Assembly: GCA_002686955.1 (NCBI GenBank)
Contig: NYZA01000240.1
Location: forward strand, 1-6,423
Reading direction: 5' to 3'
DNA from: Gemmatimonadota bacterium
Lineage (GTDB): Bacteria; GCA-2686955
Length of the DNA: 6,423 bases
Below the pieces are notes generated by a model that had not been told where the DNA came from, did no database searches, and was given only the letters and a program-made list of their open reading frames with translations. Below are positions 2-6,423 of this stretch, one piece after another; the stretch's first letter is position 1; the number at the start of each line of letters is the position of its first letter. The translations under genes were made by a program, and so were the position numbers.

Positions 2-634
2 TTCGGCTGCTCCGGTCAACGTTGCATGGCGGCTTCGGTGATGCTGGCGGTCGGCGACGTGCAAGCCGTGATCGACCGCATGGCGCGGAAGGCCGCGGCG
101 ATCGAGCTCGGCAAGGATATGGGCTGTATCATCAACGCCGCGGCCGCGGAGCGGATCATGGGCTATATCGACCAGGCGGAGGAGATGGGGGCCAGGGTGA
201 TCGTCGACGGGCGCGGGGCGAAGGTGGCGGGGAACGAAGGCTACTGGGTAGGACCGACCATCATCGACGGTGTGACGACCGAGATGCCGGCGGCGCGCGA
301 AGAGATCTTCGGGCCGGTTCTGTCGATCGTTCGGGTCGACACGCTCGATCGCGCGATCGAGATCGAGAACTCGAACCCGTACGGCAATGCAGCCGCGATC
401 TTCACGACGAACGGCGCGGTGGCCCGCTACGCGATCGAGCGATTCTCCGCCGGTATGTGCGGAGTGAATATCGGTGTTCCGGTTCCCCGCGAGCCTTTCG
501 CATTCGGTGGCTGGAACGAGAGCAAATTCGGCCACGGCGACGTGACCGGCTACGACGGTTTCCGTTTCTGGACCCGCCCGCGCAAAGTGACCGCGCGCTG
601 GGAGATCGCCAAGGACGCGACATGGATGAGCTGA
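2..634 (+). CDS. mmsA: CoA-acylating methylmalonate-semialdehyde dehydrogenase, C-terminal part (5' end outside window)
   Basis: The visible 210 residues are the C-terminal part of an aldehyde dehydrogenase superfamily enzyme. The first codons give FGCSGQRCMA, and the GQRC cysteine (codon 23-25) is the catalytic nucleophile. The family motif EEIFGPVL, the NPYGN segment and the end motifs GVNIGVPVP and FGGWNESKFG follow, finishing with FWTRPRKVTARW. The GQRC motif and the GVNxxVPVP tail are typical of the CoA-dependent MmsA/IolA/ALDH6 group rather than of ordinary ALDHs. This group oxidises malonate semialdehyde to acetyl-CoA and methylmalonate semialdehyde to propionyl-CoA, with NAD+ and CoA, in the cytoplasm. 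Family proteins are about 500 residues, so roughly 290 residues lie upstream. It is followed after 23 nt by an aminotransferase and then preT/preA, which suggests it finishes beta-alanine and 3-aminoisobutyrate breakdown from pyrimidines. A role in valine or inositol catabolism is possible but less supported by the neighbours. Confidence 0.9.
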   Translation, partial: FGCSGQRCMAASVMLAVGDVQAVIDRMARKAAAIELGKDMGCIINAAAAERIMGYIDQAEEMGARVIVDGRGAKVAGNEGYWVGPTIIDGVTTEMPAAREEIFGPVLSIVRVDTLDRAIEIENSNPYGNAAAIFTTNGAVARYAIERFSAGMCGVNIGVPVPREPFAFGGWNESKFGHGDVTGYDGFRFWTRPRKVTARWEIAKDATWMS

Positions 635-645
635 CGACGCCGGGT

Positions 646-650
646 GGAGG
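646..650 (+). promoter_or_regulatory. Shine-Dalgarno site deciding the aminotransferase start
   Basis: A GGAGG core lies 7 nt before the ATG at 658. It supports that start over the in-frame ATG at 622, which would overlap the end of mmsA and lacks a comparable site. Confidence 0.75.
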
Positions 651-657
651 ACGCGCT

Positions 658-1977
658 ATGACTTCCGAAGAGATGGTCCGACTGTGCAAGGACCACACCA
701 TGTACACTTGGGCGGCAACCGGCGCGGTCGACCCGATCCCGGTGGACCGCGCGGAAGGGGTGTATCTCTATACCCCTGAAGGGGAGCGGATCCTCGATTT
801 CAATAGCCAGCTGATGTGTGTCAACATCGGCCACGGTCACCCCAAGGTGCTCGCCGCGATCGAGCGGCAGATGAAGAAGTTCGCTTACGTCTATCCGGGG
901 ACCGCGACCGAGATCCGGGCCCGAGTGTCGAAGCGGCTCGCCGAATTGGTTCCCGGAGACATCAATACCTTCTTCTTCACATTGGGTGGAGCGGAGGCGA
1001 ACGAGAACGCGATCCGTACAGCCCGTCTCTACACCGGCCGGCAGAAGATACTGGCCCGCTATCGCAGCTATCACGGCGGCACCAACGCCTGCATGCAGCT
1101 CACGGGCGACCCGAGGCGCTTGGCGAACGAGCCGGGAATGCCTGGGATCATCCATGTGATGGATCCTCGTCCCTACGACTATTCGTTCGGCACCAGCGAC
1201 GCCGAGATGGCAGACAACCACCTGCGCTACCTCGAAGAGACGATCACCTACGAAGGCCCCGAGACGATCGCCGCGATGTTCGTGGAGACGGTCATCGGTA
1301 CCAACGGAATCCAGCCGCCCCCCCAGGGTTATCTGCCCAGGCTGAAAGAGCTGCTCGACCGTCATGGGATCCTTTTGGTTTGTGACGAGGTGATGTGCGG
1401 ATGGGGCCGGACCGGCAAGCTCTTTGCGTTCGAGCACTACGACATCGTGCCCGATATCGTCACCATGGCGAAGGGTTTGACCTCGGCCTATGCGCCTCTT
1501 GGCGCGATGGGCGTGAGCGACACGATCGCCGATCATTTCAAGAGCAACGTGTTCTGGGGCGGCCTGACCTACAACTCACACGCCCTCTCGCTGGCGGTCG
1601 CAGAGGCGGTAATAGATGTTCTGCACGACGAGAAGCTTGTCGAGAACGCCGCGCGGATGGAGTCGGTGATGCTGGGCGAGATGGAGCGTCTGAAGAAGAA
1701 ACACCCTTCGCTCAAGGAGGGGCGCGCGATCGGTCTCTTCGGGATGCTCGACATCCGCAAGAACGCGGCGGGCGAGTTGATCTGCCCTTACAACGGCGGC
1801 CATCCGGCCATGGCCGAGCTGGCGAAATCCCTGCGCGACAACGGGATGTTCACTTTTGTCCGCTGGAGCCACATCATGTGCAACCCACCCTTGTGCATCA
1901 ACGAAGCGCAGATCAAGGAAGGGTTCGAGATCATAGATTCCGCTCTCGATATCACCGATCGGGTGTTCGAGGGCTGA
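658..1977 (+). CDS. Class III PLP-dependent omega-aminotransferase, probably beta-alanine / 3-aminoisobutyrate transaminase
   Basis: This 439-residue protein is a complete fold-type I, class III aminotransferase. Visible landmarks are GGAEANEN (residues 110-117, cofactor phosphate loop), Y138-H139-GG (ring stacking), D243 in the CDEV motif (pyridine nitrogen), K272 in MAKG (Schiff-base lysine) and T304 in the TYNSH segment (phosphate contact from the partner subunit). R402 near the C-terminus is a candidate for binding the alpha-carboxylate of the amino acceptor. The N-terminus (KDHTMYTW, then a YTPEGERILDFNSQ stretch) resembles the taurine/beta-alanine transaminase branch. Such enzymes move the amino group of beta-alanine-like substrates to pyruvate or 2-oxoglutarate. 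Lying between mmsA and preT/preA, it most likely converts beta-alanine and 3-aminoisobutyrate to the semialdehydes used by MmsA. The class is certain. The substrate is inferred from context, and taurine or another omega-amino acid remains possible. The start is set by the GGAGG at 646-650. Confidence 0.88.
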   Translation: MTSEEMVRLCKDHTMYTWAATGAVDPIPVDRAEGVYLYTPEGERILDFNSQLMCVNIGHGHPKVLAAIERQMKKFAYVYPGTATEIRARVSKRLAELVPGDINTFFFTLGGAEANENAIRTARLYTGRQKILARYRSYHGGTNACMQLTGDPRRLANEPGMPGIIHVMDPRPYDYSFGTSDAEMADNHLRYLEETITYEGPETIAAMFVETVIGTNGIQPPPQGYLPRLKELLDRHGILLVCDEVMCGWGRTGKLFAFEHYDIVPDIVTMAKGLTSAYAPLGAMGVSDTIADHFKSNVFWGGLTYNSHALSLAVAEAVIDVLHDEKLVENAARMESVMLGEMERLKKKHPSLKEGRAIGLFGMLDIRKNAAGELICPYNGGHPAMAELAKSLRDNGMFTFVRWSHIMCNPPLCINEAQIKEGFEIIDSALDITDRVFEG

Positions 1978-1980
1978 GCC

Positions 1981-1985
1981 GGAGG
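1981..1985 (+). promoter_or_regulatory. Shine-Dalgarno site of preT
   Basis: A GGAGG core sits 4 nt before the ATG at 1990, inside the 12-nt gap after the aminotransferase stop. The short gap and strong site fit co-transcription with independent initiation. Confidence 0.65.
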
Positions 1986-1989
1986 CAAC

Positions 1990-3294
1990 ATGAGCACAAT
2001 TCCCGCCGAGCGGGACGAGACGAAGTTCGAGGATTTCAAGGCACCGTACACGGCCCATCAGGCCCGGATGGAGGCCGAGCGCTGCCTCTACTGTGAAGAT
2101 GCACCCTGTGTCAAAGCCTGTCCCACATCGATCGACGTTCCGCAGTTCATCCGCAAGATTACGAGCGGGAATCTCTGGGGATCGGCCCGGACCATCTTCT
2201 CGGCCAATATCCTCGGAATGAGCTGCTCCCGCGTCTGCCCCGTGGAAACATCGTGTGTCGCGGCCTGCGTACACAACGAGCAGGCCGTCGCGCCGATTCA
2301 GATCGGAAGGCTGCAAAGATTCGTCACCGATCACGCATACGAGAGCGGTTGGCGCTACTTCGAGGCGGGCGGATCGAGCGGAAAAAGCGTTGCACTCGTC
2401 GGCGGTGGACCGGCATCGCTCGCGGCCGCCCACGAACTTCGTCGCAAAGGCCATGCCTGCACGATCTACGAGAAGCGCCGGATGCTGGGGGGGTTGAACA
2501 CGACCGGGATCGCTCCCTACAAGTTGCGGGCCGATCGAGCCACCGAAGAAGTGGAATGGGTTCTTGGGATCGGAGGCGTCGACATCGAGACGTCGACGGC
2601 GTTGGGTGAGGATGTGTCGCTCGAAGAGCTGGAAATGAAACACGATGCGGTGTTCATCGGCATCGGGCTCGGTGAGGACACATTTCTTTCAGTCACGAAC
2701 GAACACCTTGAGGGGGTGCACGGCGCGGTCGAGTTCATCGAGCGGATCAAGCTCGGTCGAGTCGACCTCGATGGAGTAGGGCGCGCCCTGGTGATCGGCG
2801 GTGGGAACACCGCTCTCGATGCCGTGCGGGAGCTGGTGGGACTCGGCCTAGACGACGTGAGGCTGGTCTATCGGGGGCGAGAAGAGGTGAAACCGGGCTA
2901 TGCTCACGAGTGGGAGGCGGCGAAGATGGAGGGGGTGCGTGCGCACTGGCAAACGCAACCGATCGACTACAGGGGCGAAGGTCGTGTAAGCGGTCTGAGA
3001 TGCGTGAGAACCGACGAGAAGAAGAGGGCGATCGATGGCAGCGAGCGCACACTCGATGCAGATCTGATTCTGCTTGCGCTCGGGCAGGAGACACTCGGTT
3101 CGCTCGTGGCATCCGCCGAGGGCATCGAGATCGACGGCGGATGTGTTCGTATCGACGATAATGGCGCCACCGGCCGGCCGGGGGTGTTCGCCGGCGGGGA
3201 TTGTACGAACGGGGGCAAAGAGGTAGTGAACGCGGCCTTTGAAGGCAAACGAGCCGCGGAAGCGATCGATCGCTACCTGATGGGAGAGAAGTGA
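1990..3294 (+). CDS. preT: NAD-dependent dihydropyrimidine dehydrogenase, FAD/NAD(H) electron-transfer subunit PreT
   Basis: This 434-residue subunit takes electrons from NADH to FAD and passes them through Fe-S clusters to PreA. It is slightly longer than E. coli PreT (about 410). Residues 32-93 hold eight cysteines (32, 35, 40, 44, 79, 83, 89, 93). Against pig DPD as I recall it, all its cluster ligands match at a constant offset of 47, including Q109 for the unusual Gln156 ligand. An FAD dinucleotide-binding motif follows (VGGGPAS, glycines 138-140, with E161 ending strand 2). The second Rossmann motif is VIGGGNTA (268-275), which is the NAD(P)H site. The C-terminal FAD signature is FAGGDCTNGGKEVV (D404). 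The same architecture occurs in glutamate synthase small subunits, but the matching cluster ligands and the adjacent preA identify PreT. Its stop codon overlaps the preA start (TGATG), suggesting translational coupling and balanced subunit production. Confidence 0.93.
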   Translation: MSTIPAERDETKFEDFKAPYTAHQARMEAERCLYCEDAPCVKACPTSIDVPQFIRKITSGNLWGSARTIFSANILGMSCSRVCPVETSCVAACVHNEQAVAPIQIGRLQRFVTDHAYESGWRYFEAGGSSGKSVALVGGGPASLAAAHELRRKGHACTIYEKRRMLGGLNTTGIAPYKLRADRATEEVEWVLGIGGVDIETSTALGEDVSLEELEMKHDAVFIGIGLGEDTFLSVTNEHLEGVHGAVEFIERIKLGRVDLDGVGRALVIGGGNTALDAVRELVGLGLDDVRLVYRGREEVKPGYAHEWEAAKMEGVRAHWQTQPIDYRGEGRVSGLRCVRTDEKKRAIDGSERTLDADLILLALGQETLGSLVASAEGIEIDGGCVRIDDNGATGRPGVFAGGDCTNGGKEVVNAAFEGKRAAEAIDRYLMGEK

Positions 3295-4565
3295 TGCCCG
3301 ATCTGACCGCCAACTGCGCTGGAATCGTCTCGCCGAACCCCTTTTGGCTCGCGTCCGCGCCACCCAGCAATTCGGGCGAGCAGGTGATGCGAGCGTTCGA
3401 CGCCGGCTGGGGCGGCGCGGTCTGGAAGACACTCGGGCAACCGATCCAGAATGTCTCCAGCCGCTTTGGAGGCCACCACTATCGGGGCACCCGGGCGATC
3501 GGATTCAACAACATCGAGCTTATTACCGACCGTCCCCTCGATACGAACCTTCGCGAGATCGAAGAGGTCAAGAAGCGCTACCCGCACAACGCCCTGATCG
3601 TCAGTCTGATGGTGGAGTCGGAAGAGGAGTGGAAGGAGATCATCCGGCGTTCGATCGATGCCGGGGCCGATGGCCTCGAGCTGAACTTCGGCTGTCCGCA
3701 CGGGATGTGCGAGCGCGGCATGGGCTCGGCCGTGGGCCAGGAGCCGAAGGTTAACGAGCGGATCACGTCGTGGGCGGCGAGTTACTCGAGTGTGCCGGTC
3801 ATCGTGAAGTTGACGCCGAATGTGCACGATATCCGCCCCCACGGCCTCGCGGCCCAACGCGGCGGCGCCGATGCGGTGAGCCTTATCAACACCATCAAGA
3901 GCATCGTCAGCGTCGACATCGACAGCATGATCCCCGCGCCGATCGTCGGTGAGCTCGGCACCAACGGCGGATACTGCGGCCCGGCGGTCAAACCGATCGC
4001 GCTGCAGATGGTGGCATCGCTGGCGAGCACTCCTGAATTCAAGCTGCCGATCAGCGGCATCGGAGGGATCTCGAATTGGCGCGACGCCGTGGAGTTTATG
4101 TTGCTGGGGTCGAGCTCGGTTCAGGTCTGCACCGAAGTGATGCTGCGAGGCTATCGCGTCGTCGAGGACATGATCGAAGGGCTCGAGTTCTACATGCGAG
4201 AGAAAGGCTTCGAGAGGCTCGACGATCTTATCGGTGGCGCGGCACCGGCGTTCAGTGAATGGGGCGACCTCGACATGAATTTCGAGTCGGTCGCCCGTGT
4301 CGATGCGGAGACTTGCATCGGTTGCTACGACTGCGTGGTCGCCTGTGCCGACGGCGGTCACCAGTGCATCGAACCGGGGAGGGGCGATCGCAGGGTGCCG
4401 GTGGTCGATGAGGAGGAGTGCGTCGGCTGCAATCTCTGCGAGATCGTCTGCCCCGTCCCCGGCTGTATCACCATGACCGAGGTCGACAACGGCTGGGCGC
4501 CGGCGACCTGGAACCAACATCTCGCCTCGGGAGTCCGGCTTCGTCCAAAGAAAGGGTCGCACTAA
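3294..4565 (+). CDS. preA: NAD-dependent dihydropyrimidine dehydrogenase, catalytic FMN subunit PreA
   Basis: This 423-residue cytoplasmic subunit reduces the 5,6 double bond of uracil or thymine, the first step of reductive pyrimidine breakdown. The N-terminal FMN TIM barrel shows SPNPFWLAS near the start, GGAVWKTLG (K45), NNIEL (N72-N73), NFGCPHG with catalytic C134, KLTPN (K172), INT (N199-T200) and GIGGI (255-259, FMN phosphate). These correspond to uracil- and FMN-binding positions of DPD. The C-terminus is a two-cluster ferredoxin domain with CxxCxxCxxxC at 341-351 and CxxCxxCxxxC at 376-386, plus an extra C391. Length matches E. coli PreA (about 411). The ATG at 3294 is preferred. It overlaps the preT stop by one base and has GGAGAG at 3282-3287. 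A GTG directly before it (3291) would add only one residue. The stop codon TAA abuts a palindromic repeat. Confidence 0.94.
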   Translation: MPDLTANCAGIVSPNPFWLASAPPSNSGEQVMRAFDAGWGGAVWKTLGQPIQNVSSRFGGHHYRGTRAIGFNNIELITDRPLDTNLREIEEVKKRYPHNALIVSLMVESEEEWKEIIRRSIDAGADGLELNFGCPHGMCERGMGSAVGQEPKVNERITSWAASYSSVPVIVKLTPNVHDIRPHGLAAQRGGADAVSLINTIKSIVSVDIDSMIPAPIVGELGTNGGYCGPAVKPIALQMVASLASTPEFKLPISGIGGISNWRDAVEFMLLGSSSVQVCTEVMLRGYRVVEDMIEGLEFYMREKGFERLDDLIGGAAPAFSEWGDLDMNFESVARVDAETCIGCYDCVVACADGGHQCIEPGRGDRRVPVVDEEECVGCNLCEIVCPVPGCITMTEVDNGWAPATWNQHLASGVRLRPKKGSH

Positions 4566-4747
4566 GGGTTCGCGCAAGAATGGAATGCTATTGTCGCATC
4601 CCATCTGCACCACATCTCCGGCCGATCGGCAAGCCCCGAAATCCGCGACGTAGCGCTGCTACGCCTGTGGTTTCGGAGCTCACCGATCGACCAGATCTGC
4701 GGCACATATGGGCGCCAAGATGACAAGTTGTTCTTGCGCGGACCCTA
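4564..4747. repeat. Large imperfect palindromic repeat element, complete copy
   Basis: This element of about 184 bp is an inverted repeat over almost its whole length. The outer arms (4565-4580 and 4731-4746) match at 15 of 16 positions. The next 18-19 bases on each side do not pair well. The inner arms (4600-4654 and 4658-4712) pair at 39 of 55 positions by Watson-Crick, ending in a 6-bp stem CGTAGC/GCTACG around the 3-nt loop GCT. The left arm recurs at 6357-6423. The form recalls intergenic palindromic repeats such as ERIC, but I do not recognise this sequence as a named family. It contains no protein gene. There is no T-run after the hairpin, so a classical intrinsic terminator is not supported. 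It could still end or stabilise the operon transcript. It begins inside the preA stop codon. The sequence from 4748 to 4800 shows nothing I can name. Confidence 0.85.
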
Positions 4748-4800
4748 ACTCGAACGAGCGACGCCCTGGAGAGACCTGAGGTTGAGTCGATAGCTCAGCT

Positions 4801-6279
4801 GTGGACTCGATCAAACCGGCCCGTGTTCGCGCCCTCGGTGTCGCGGTGGCGCTCTGTGGCGCGTACGCCCTTTCCCGCGTACCGGTGTTCACGGCGGGCT
4901 ATGGGGGGGACGGGGACTACTGGAACGTGGCGAGCGTGGCCCGCCGGATTCTCGAGTCGGGCGAGTACGAGATGGCGCGCGCTCCGGGCAACCCCTTGCA
5001 CGAGGCGCAGATGGCCGTGGCTCTCTGGATCGCCGACGCCGCCGGCGTTTCCGGTTGGTGGGTGGCCAACTCCTTTACGCTGCTTTGGGGCGTGCTGCTC
5101 CTGCTGGCCGTCGACCGAATCAGGGCTCGGATCGGCAGCCTTCGTGCCCATCGTTGGCCGCTCCTGGCCATGGTCGCCTTCCTGCCGATCTTCTGGGCGC
5201 ACTCCGCCGATGGCTCCGATCACGTCCCCGCCGCCGCCCTGACCCTCGCCTCGATCGCCTGCGCTCTTCCCGCGGAATCGGCCGCCGCCGCCCTGCTCTC
5301 CGGAGTACTCCTCGGTTTCGCCGGAGGATTCCGAATCGGGAGCCTCGTGTTCGCGCCGGCGGCAATCCTCGCCCTTCCCACGCGATGGCGGTCCTGGAGG
5401 TGGCTCGCACTCTCGCTCGGAGTCGCTCTGGTTCTCGCCCTTGTCTACCTGCCGGTGCTGCACTCCCAAGGGATCTCGGCGCTCTCCCCAACCCACCGCG
5501 CCCACAGCATCTTGGGGCGTCTCGCACGAACCGCCTATCGGATCGACGCCGCCCTCCTGCCTGGCTTCCTTCTGCCCTTCGCCGTTTTCCTCATTGGCCG
5601 CTCCCGGCGAGCCCGCCACGGGATCGTTCGTCTGTTCCGACGGCCCAAGCCCGCCGAAATCTCGCTGCTCAGTGGACTGTTGGCCTCGATTCTGCTCTTC
5701 TCGTGGCTTCCGCTCGACGCGGCCTATCTGCTGCCCGGAGCGATCAGCGTCTTCCTGCTCGCCACGCGCATCGTCCGCCCCCGCGTACTCGCGGCCTGCG
5801 CCTGCGTGGCCGCTCTGAGCGCTTGGTTCGAGCCGAACTTGGTCGATCCTCGCACGGGACGTCTCGCGCCGGGCATCTATCCCGGCCGGGTCTCCGCCTT
5901 CGTCCACGAGGGGCGCATGTTCAAGGACTACACCGCCTTTCTTCTTTCGCGGCGTTTCCCCCCGGGAAGCCTCGTTGTCGTCTCCCGCGCACCTTGGGGC
6001 GGACGAGGAGAGGAGTTCGTGTTGCGAGTCCCAGCGGAATCCCCGCTCCGGGCGGAGGACGCATCGCCGATTCGCACCCACCCGGAATTGAACGACGTCT
6101 GGTTCGTCGGCTACCGCCCACTTCTGCACGGTGAATCTCGCCGGGCGCTCGCCCTTTCGAATCGCCGCCTCTTGATCGACGCGGATGCGATCGACAGAGC
6201 CCGACAAGAGGCGCACGGGGACCTTCTCGCGGCGGTATCCTCTTGGCCTCGGTCGGTCGAGGTCTTCTCTCCCGAGTAG
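4801..6279 (+). CDS. Polytopic membrane protein, GT-C glycosyltransferase-like
   Basis: I do not recognise a specific family, but this 492-residue protein looks like an integral membrane glycosyltransferase of the GT-C type. One N-terminal helix (about residues 11-30) is followed by an outer loop with G-Y-G-G-D37-G-D39 and then R60-A-P-G-N-P-L-H-E. Acidic residues just after helix 1 are the usual GT-C catalytic-loop signature. Seven to nine further hydrophobic segments follow between about 70 and 345, including a GGFRIGSL stretch, and a soluble C-terminal part of about 145 residues ends the protein. GT-C enzymes use lipid-linked sugars on the outer face of the membrane. The donor and acceptor here cannot be told. 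The GTG start at 4801 is the first start after an in-frame stop at 4783-4785. There is no convincing ribosome-binding site, so the start is less sure. It lies between two repeat copies and has no visible link to pyrimidine catabolism. Confidence 0.72.
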   Translation: MDSIKPARVRALGVAVALCGAYALSRVPVFTAGYGGDGDYWNVASVARRILESGEYEMARAPGNPLHEAQMAVALWIADAAGVSGWWVANSFTLLWGVLLLLAVDRIRARIGSLRAHRWPLLAMVAFLPIFWAHSADGSDHVPAAALTLASIACALPAESAAAALLSGVLLGFAGGFRIGSLVFAPAAILALPTRWRSWRWLALSLGVALVLALVYLPVLHSQGISALSPTHRAHSILGRLARTAYRIDAALLPGFLLPFAVFLIGRSRRARHGIVRLFRRPKPAEISLLSGLLASILLFSWLPLDAAYLLPGAISVFLLATRIVRPRVLAACACVAALSAWFEPNLVDPRTGRLAPGIYPGRVSAFVHEGRMFKDYTAFLLSRRFPPGSLVVVSRAPWGGRGEEFVLRVPAESPLRAEDASPIRTHPELNDVWFVGYRPLLHGESRRALALSNRRLLIDADAIDRARQEAHGDLLAAVSSWPRSVEVFSPE

Positions 6280-6356: not shown

Positions 6357-6423
6357 GGGGTCCACGCAAGAACAACTAGCGAGTTTCGCATCCCATCTGC
6401 ACCCCATCTCCGGTCGATCGGCA
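6357..6423. repeat. Palindromic repeat element, second copy (left arm only, cut by window end)
   Basis: This stretch aligns without gaps to 4565-4631 of the first copy, 1792 bp away and in the same orientation. The segment 6386-6423 matches 4594-4631 at 36 of 38 bases, and the outer 16 bases match at 13 of 16. The 13 bases between them (6373-6385) are the same length but differ at most positions. The copy lies about 77 bp downstream of the stop codon of the membrane-protein gene. The rest of the element would lie beyond the window. Bases 6280-6356 between the gene and this copy hold no gene or strong signal that I can see. Confidence 0.85.

Follow-up and report, generated by a model that had tools for sequence, protein, structure and literature searches.

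A MITE-like transposon of a Gemmatimonadota bacterium whose core is selected for the fold of one strand, probably as RNA

The intergenic palindrome that follows preA in the window (the whole stretch of 6,423 nucleotides that was analysed, from a Gemmatimonadota bacterium) is a member of a dispersed mobile family, and its inner core has been selected for the fold of one strand, the minus strand of the window, which we call the R strand throughout. The family carries a signature of mobility, covaries in a strand-specific manner and keeps its core in relatives with different arms. We favour, with a probability of about 0.55, the reading that this is a non-autonomous MITE-like transposon whose core is kept for the one-strand fold, most likely as RNA made from source copies, where it would aid the spread of the element. 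The first-pass annotation of the window had placed the palindrome at 4564-4747; the element is real, but both ends lie 2 positions further in, with GGG at 4566 and CCC at 4745 as its boundaries (Table 1). The window copy is chimera-like, since its two terminal inverted repeats (TIRs) belong to different subtypes (AATGCTAT versus AACTTGTCAT), which explains the additional A-C and mismatched cells of its outer stem.

Table 1. Coordinates of the window element, its parts and a second copy within the window
Feature	Positions	Strand	Remarks
Whole MITE-like element	4566-4745	-	180 bp; minus strand is the R strand, the folding one
Left target duplication TAA, 3 bp, also the preA stop codon	4563-4565	.	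sequence
Right target duplication TAA, 3 bp	4746-4748	.	sequence
Left TIR GGGTTCGCGCAAGAATGGAATGCTAT, subtype AATGCTAT, 26 bp	4566-4591	+	
Right TIR, minus strand reads GGGTCCGCGCAAGAACAACTTGTCAT, subtype AACTTGTCAT, 26 bp	4720-4745	-	
Inner hairpin core, ~128 bp, conserved module; G-U pairs on the R strand, tandem G.A in the internal loops	4592-4719	-	
Apical motif, form of the window copy CCACAGGCGUAGCAGCGCUACGUCGCGGAU	4641-4670	-	family motif CCGSAGG-YGUAS...SUACRU-YGAGGA
Second copy, truncated by the contig end, downstream of a plus-strand gene	6358-6423	-	80% identity over 66 nt

A mobile repeat was one of the options that the first-pass annotation had left for the palindrome, and it had proposed a search for other copies in the genome. 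Many were found: the family occupies at least 73 distinct places in its own genome (116 both-strand matches by BLASTN and covariance model, counted from the table), and its TIRs and 3-bp duplications mark the element as a mobile repeat. The TIR pattern matches 174 places in the genome (93 + 81), against 4 (3 + 1) for a reversed control pattern. Identical 3-bp direct repeats flank 21 of the 39 copies for which both ends were read, where 2000 shuffles gave 7.0 on average and 17 at most, and such duplications at the ends are the mark of a DDE-type insertion. Short, non-coding, dispersed and present in high copy number, with TIRs and direct target duplication, the family looks like a MITE. In shorter forms of 151, 98-99, 86-89 and 40 bp the hairpin tip is missing while the TIRs are retained, and the junctions of several of them fall at AGAT direct repeats that are found in both arms. 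Deletion derivatives that keep both TIRs at a length of 40-99 bp were noted at ten loci, and several of them are flanked by matching 3-bp duplications. Many contigs of this metagenome-assembled genome (MAG) terminate within copies of the element, including the window at its end, 6423, and ten others, which indicates that the repeat fragments the assembly. The plasmid and phage collections that were searched contained no match to the element.

The asymmetry between the two strands is already visible in the window copy, in which an ungapped comparison of 4600-4654 with 4658-4712 gives 39 Watson-Crick pairs, 9 G-U pairs on the minus strand only, 1 on the plus strand only and 6 other positions among 55, in exact agreement with the earlier count by hand. 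This 9:1 split is on its own weak evidence (p=0.02). The predicted RNA minimum free energy of the window copy is -117.1 kcal/mol for the minus strand (z -11.7) versus -92.0 for the plus strand (z -7.1), and the R strand is the better folder in all 30 own-genome copies compared, by a margin of 14-50 kcal/mol, these copies having been oriented solely by BLASTN identity, with contig-minus matches flipped. Across 25 copies, R-strand cells comprise 262 G-U against 23 A-C. The bias is family-wide, yet it is limited to the inner hairpin, and the TIRs are without it.

Because the copies are related, we placed 42 own-genome copies on a tree and scored the changes along its branches. Within the inner hairpin, changes from Watson-Crick to G-U outnumber those from Watson-Crick to A-C by 15:1 (p=0.0005) on internal branches and by 38:19 (p=0.016) on terminal ones, with C>T and A>G changes both contributing, whereas over all branches of the TIRs the ratio is 38:28 (p=0.27). 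The direct comparisons, inner hairpin versus TIRs over all events (53:20 versus 38:28, p=0.075) and internal versus terminal branches (p=0.054), are suggestive. The TIRs, located in the very copies and on the strand that were scored for the core, provide an internal control for strand-biased mutation, and their lack of bias next to a biased core argues against such mutation as the cause. In the own-genome alignment, 95.8% of cells are paired and 33 of the 72 pairs are doubly changed, versus 19.2 +/- 2.3 after shuffling, which together with the tandem G.A internal loops supports the minus-strand fold. The family has many fixed G-U columns, individual G.U pairs being fixed in as many as 40 of the 42 copies. 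Both the pairing constraint and the strand bias, which the first-pass annotation had proposed to follow through many copies, are thus retained, and its suggestion of selection on the fold of one strand is borne out by the family-wide bias, the covariation and the restriction to the inner hairpin. Covariation and strand-specific wobble, taken together as the hallmark of a structured RNA, are both present; of the four families in which G-U events were tested, two gave no significant result.

The internal loops carry a further asymmetry. On the R strand they hold G.A, not C.T, for example as tandem G.A at model columns 43/44 and 54/55. In a strand-neutral palindrome alignment, oriented by the apical motif only, G.A and C.T cells of the core stand at 114:8 in the own genome, and four other arm groups range from 101:3 to 181:15, counted as cells and not as independent events. 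Good support for the G-U signature comes from two families, and the signature is not universal. The second of these is the CCTAAACTGAGC family, whose arms are unrelated, with G-U against A-C events of 27:3 in the inner part and 22:17 in the arms. Inner events are non-significant in relatives from Thermoanaerobaculia that share the arm type of the window element (16:14) and in IS1380-armed copies (15:11), and in the latter A-C cells outnumber G-T cells (47:26). The G.A signature is universal among the groups examined.

Beyond the own genome, a 16-nt core pattern run against all genomes was too short and gave mostly chance matches, and pointed to three Acidobacteriota MAGs. A covariance model (R1) gave matches in 11 of 119 genomes from the class of a Thermoanaerobaculales MAG. 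Applied to the Acidobacteriota, a model built from 17 of these copies (R2) located the element in 32 of 396 genomes; among 385 genomes that had been picked as relatives of the window genome and lie in other bacterial families, 18 had it, and the single genome of the same family that was searched had no element. The relatives are mainly ~165-190 bp long. Their arms vary widely and are often unrelated, including GGGTYCGCGCAAGAAT (the window type), CCTAAACTGAGCGATTCTGGCGG, CTARCCCGGATTATTCATGAAGG and others, and nearly all of them share the apical motif (Table 1). Among the relatives listed, the R strand is more stable in 28/28, 28/28 and 24/28 copies of three sets. Since MAFFT over all arm types gave no consensus fold, covariance-model alignments were used, and in these alignments, which are fitted to the structure, both partners have changed in 62 of 72 pairs among the 17 class-level copies and in 70 of 71 among 47 cross-phylum rows, one of which is a reverse-strand match. 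In the CCTAAACTGAGCGATTCTGGCGG-armed family, apparent 5-bp duplications were seen by eye (GAATA, TAGAT, TTAAA and TTTGA; ten loci), suggesting that mobility of the core here probably depends on a different transposase. The apical patterns were sought in viral contigs without a match, and Rfam returned no family at gathering thresholds and no match to the element at relaxed ones.

How could such an element work? A transposase supplied in trans would recognise the outer 26-bp TIRs as double-stranded DNA; the TIR pattern is observed, the partner presumed. The R strand of the core would fold into a long rod that contains G-U pairs as well as internal loops of purine G.A, closed by the conserved apical hairpin cap. 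The folded molecule is most likely RNA transcribed from source copies, and the core would then be a candidate protein-binding RNA, for instance one that recruits or regulates the transposase of the element; alternatively, it may be tolerated or processed within transcripts. A further advantage of G-U pairs could be that they permit the hairpin in RNA yet leave the palindrome in DNA imperfect, and so less prone to deletion. Presumably the core matters for the spread of the element rather than for individual resident sites: the mixed orientation of copies relative to genes, described below, and the looser terminal branches suggest source copies, while the element spreads, as the target of selection. 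MITEs are usually regarded as dead deletion products with an irrelevant interior; here, the interior is the conserved part and the ends are the changing part. If the folded strand is RNA, a widespread structured RNA would be missing from Rfam, and selection on a non-autonomous transposon would act through its transcript. A broader and more tentative idea, possible though doubtful at present, is that of a class of mobile non-coding RNAs, rod-like and with a near-universal apical motif, which travel as MITE cargo across many phyla with exchangeable terminal repeats and different transposases, and act in trans via a bound protein. The covariance models and the specific apical motif are ready for use by others in expression tests and in a search for bound proteins.

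The folded molecule might instead be single-stranded DNA, the element being recognised in, or passing through, a single-stranded state like attC or REP hairpins. This we regard as unlikely, at somewhat under one chance in four. G.T and tandem G.A pairs are tolerated in DNA hairpins too, so that a single-stranded DNA fold would likewise favour both; the R strand of the window copy is more stable with DNA parameters as well (-54.8 versus -44.4); and families without the G-U bias still retain G.A over C.T. However, the TIRs and 3-bp target duplications indicate a DDE transposase working on double-stranded DNA, the apical motif is absent from all Y1/RAYT gene loci fetched, and near-complete fixation of G.U pairs is more natural for RNA. 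Together, the fixed G-U pairs and the DDE-type ends make RNA the likelier of the two molecules. It is less probable again that we are dealing with an ordinary MITE with a functionless hairpin, its arms complementary through the needs of the TIRs, gene conversion or recent origin, and its bias inherited from a master copy or produced by asymmetric mutation. The copies do share descent, with many G-U columns fixed, and changes on terminal branches are less biased than those on internal ones. This explanation is nonetheless largely contradicted already by the tree events of the core (15:1 and 53:20) beside the unbiased TIRs of the same copies, by the recurrence of the bias in the family with unrelated arms, and by the conservation of the core across phyla with different arms.

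Least probable, in our view, is a role in the transcripts of neighbouring genes, in which each resident copy would govern RNA processing or stability in the manner of Correia/NEMIS or ERIC, even though many copies abut the 3' ends of genes, the stop codon of preA adjoins the window copy, and RNase III is known to cut MITE hairpins within mRNAs (PMC10969869). On simple home-made codon-usage gene calls, 26 copies have the R strand in sense orientation to the upstream neighbour and 30 in antisense; relative to the downstream neighbour, 36 are antisense and 22 sense. A signal carried by the R strand would thus be read on the wrong strand in about half of the copies, since it is sense to the upstream gene in just 26 of 56, and the constraint appears weaker on terminal branches. 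The same mixed orientation leaves unsupported the antisense function towards the preA operon that the first-pass annotation had considered. Several copies (four loci) are inserted exactly at gene ends, and at the window copy the TAA doubles as the stop codon of preA. The operon concerned, at 2-4565, encodes an aldehyde dehydrogenase, a class III aminotransferase, and PreT-like and PreA-like proteins (reductive pyrimidine degradation), and downstream of the element, at 4801-6279, lies a gene for a 492-aa hydrophobic protein with no Pfam match.

Several known systems resemble the window family in part. Integron attC sites are one-strand imperfect palindromes; unlike the cassette arrays in which those occur, copies of the window family are solitary and intergenic, with TIRs and 3-bp duplications. 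Correia/NEMIS, ERIC, YPAL and RUP are bacterial MITEs that fold as RNA in transcripts, some of them cut by RNase III (PMC10969869, PMC3733652), and they share with the window family a length of 100-200 bp, intergenic position, high copy number, TIRs, target duplication and a long hairpin. The window family differs from them in its 3-bp duplications, cross-phylum core, exchangeable arms and core-limited strand asymmetry. GTAG/CGTC-tagged REPs and their RAYTs offer another parallel, as dispersed palindromes with G-T pairing found in several phyla, and this pairing has been interpreted as a sign of RNA function (PMC3733652); REPs, however, are 20-40 bp long with a terminal unpaired tag, where the window family has TIRs and target duplications. 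In the open-access literature, we found no report of a cross-phylum conserved MITE core with exchangeable ends.

Candidates for the mobilising enzyme were sought among known transposases. The CTARCCCGGATTATTCATGAAGG-type arms of several relatives resemble the TIRs flanking PF13701 (IS1380-family) genes, and in one genome a copy of the element adjoins such a gene; the apical motif, sought by regular expression in PF13701 loci, was absent from them save for this separate copy. An IS1380-derived MITE was rejected for the window element itself, whose arms are GGGTYCGCGCAAGAAT and not the IS1380 TIR, the match being confined to some relatives. In the own genome, an 84.5% complete and fragmented MAG, there is no PF13701 match and none of the PF01609 genes carries the TIRs of the element. 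With this completeness and with many contig ends inside copies, the missing transposase is weak evidence. One PF01609 element of the genome ends in TGAAGTTTC. Mobilisation by RAYT, as for REP/REPIN, was also rejected, the apical motif being absent from the 27 PF01797 (Y1) loci fetched. An ISKra4 gene near a matching TIR was set aside, as the adjacent DNA reads by eye as an IS1380 remnant. On one contig of another genome, two head-to-tail copies of an IS1380-type gene, each with one internal stop, lie beside AACCCGCATAATTCATGAAGC-type TIRs.
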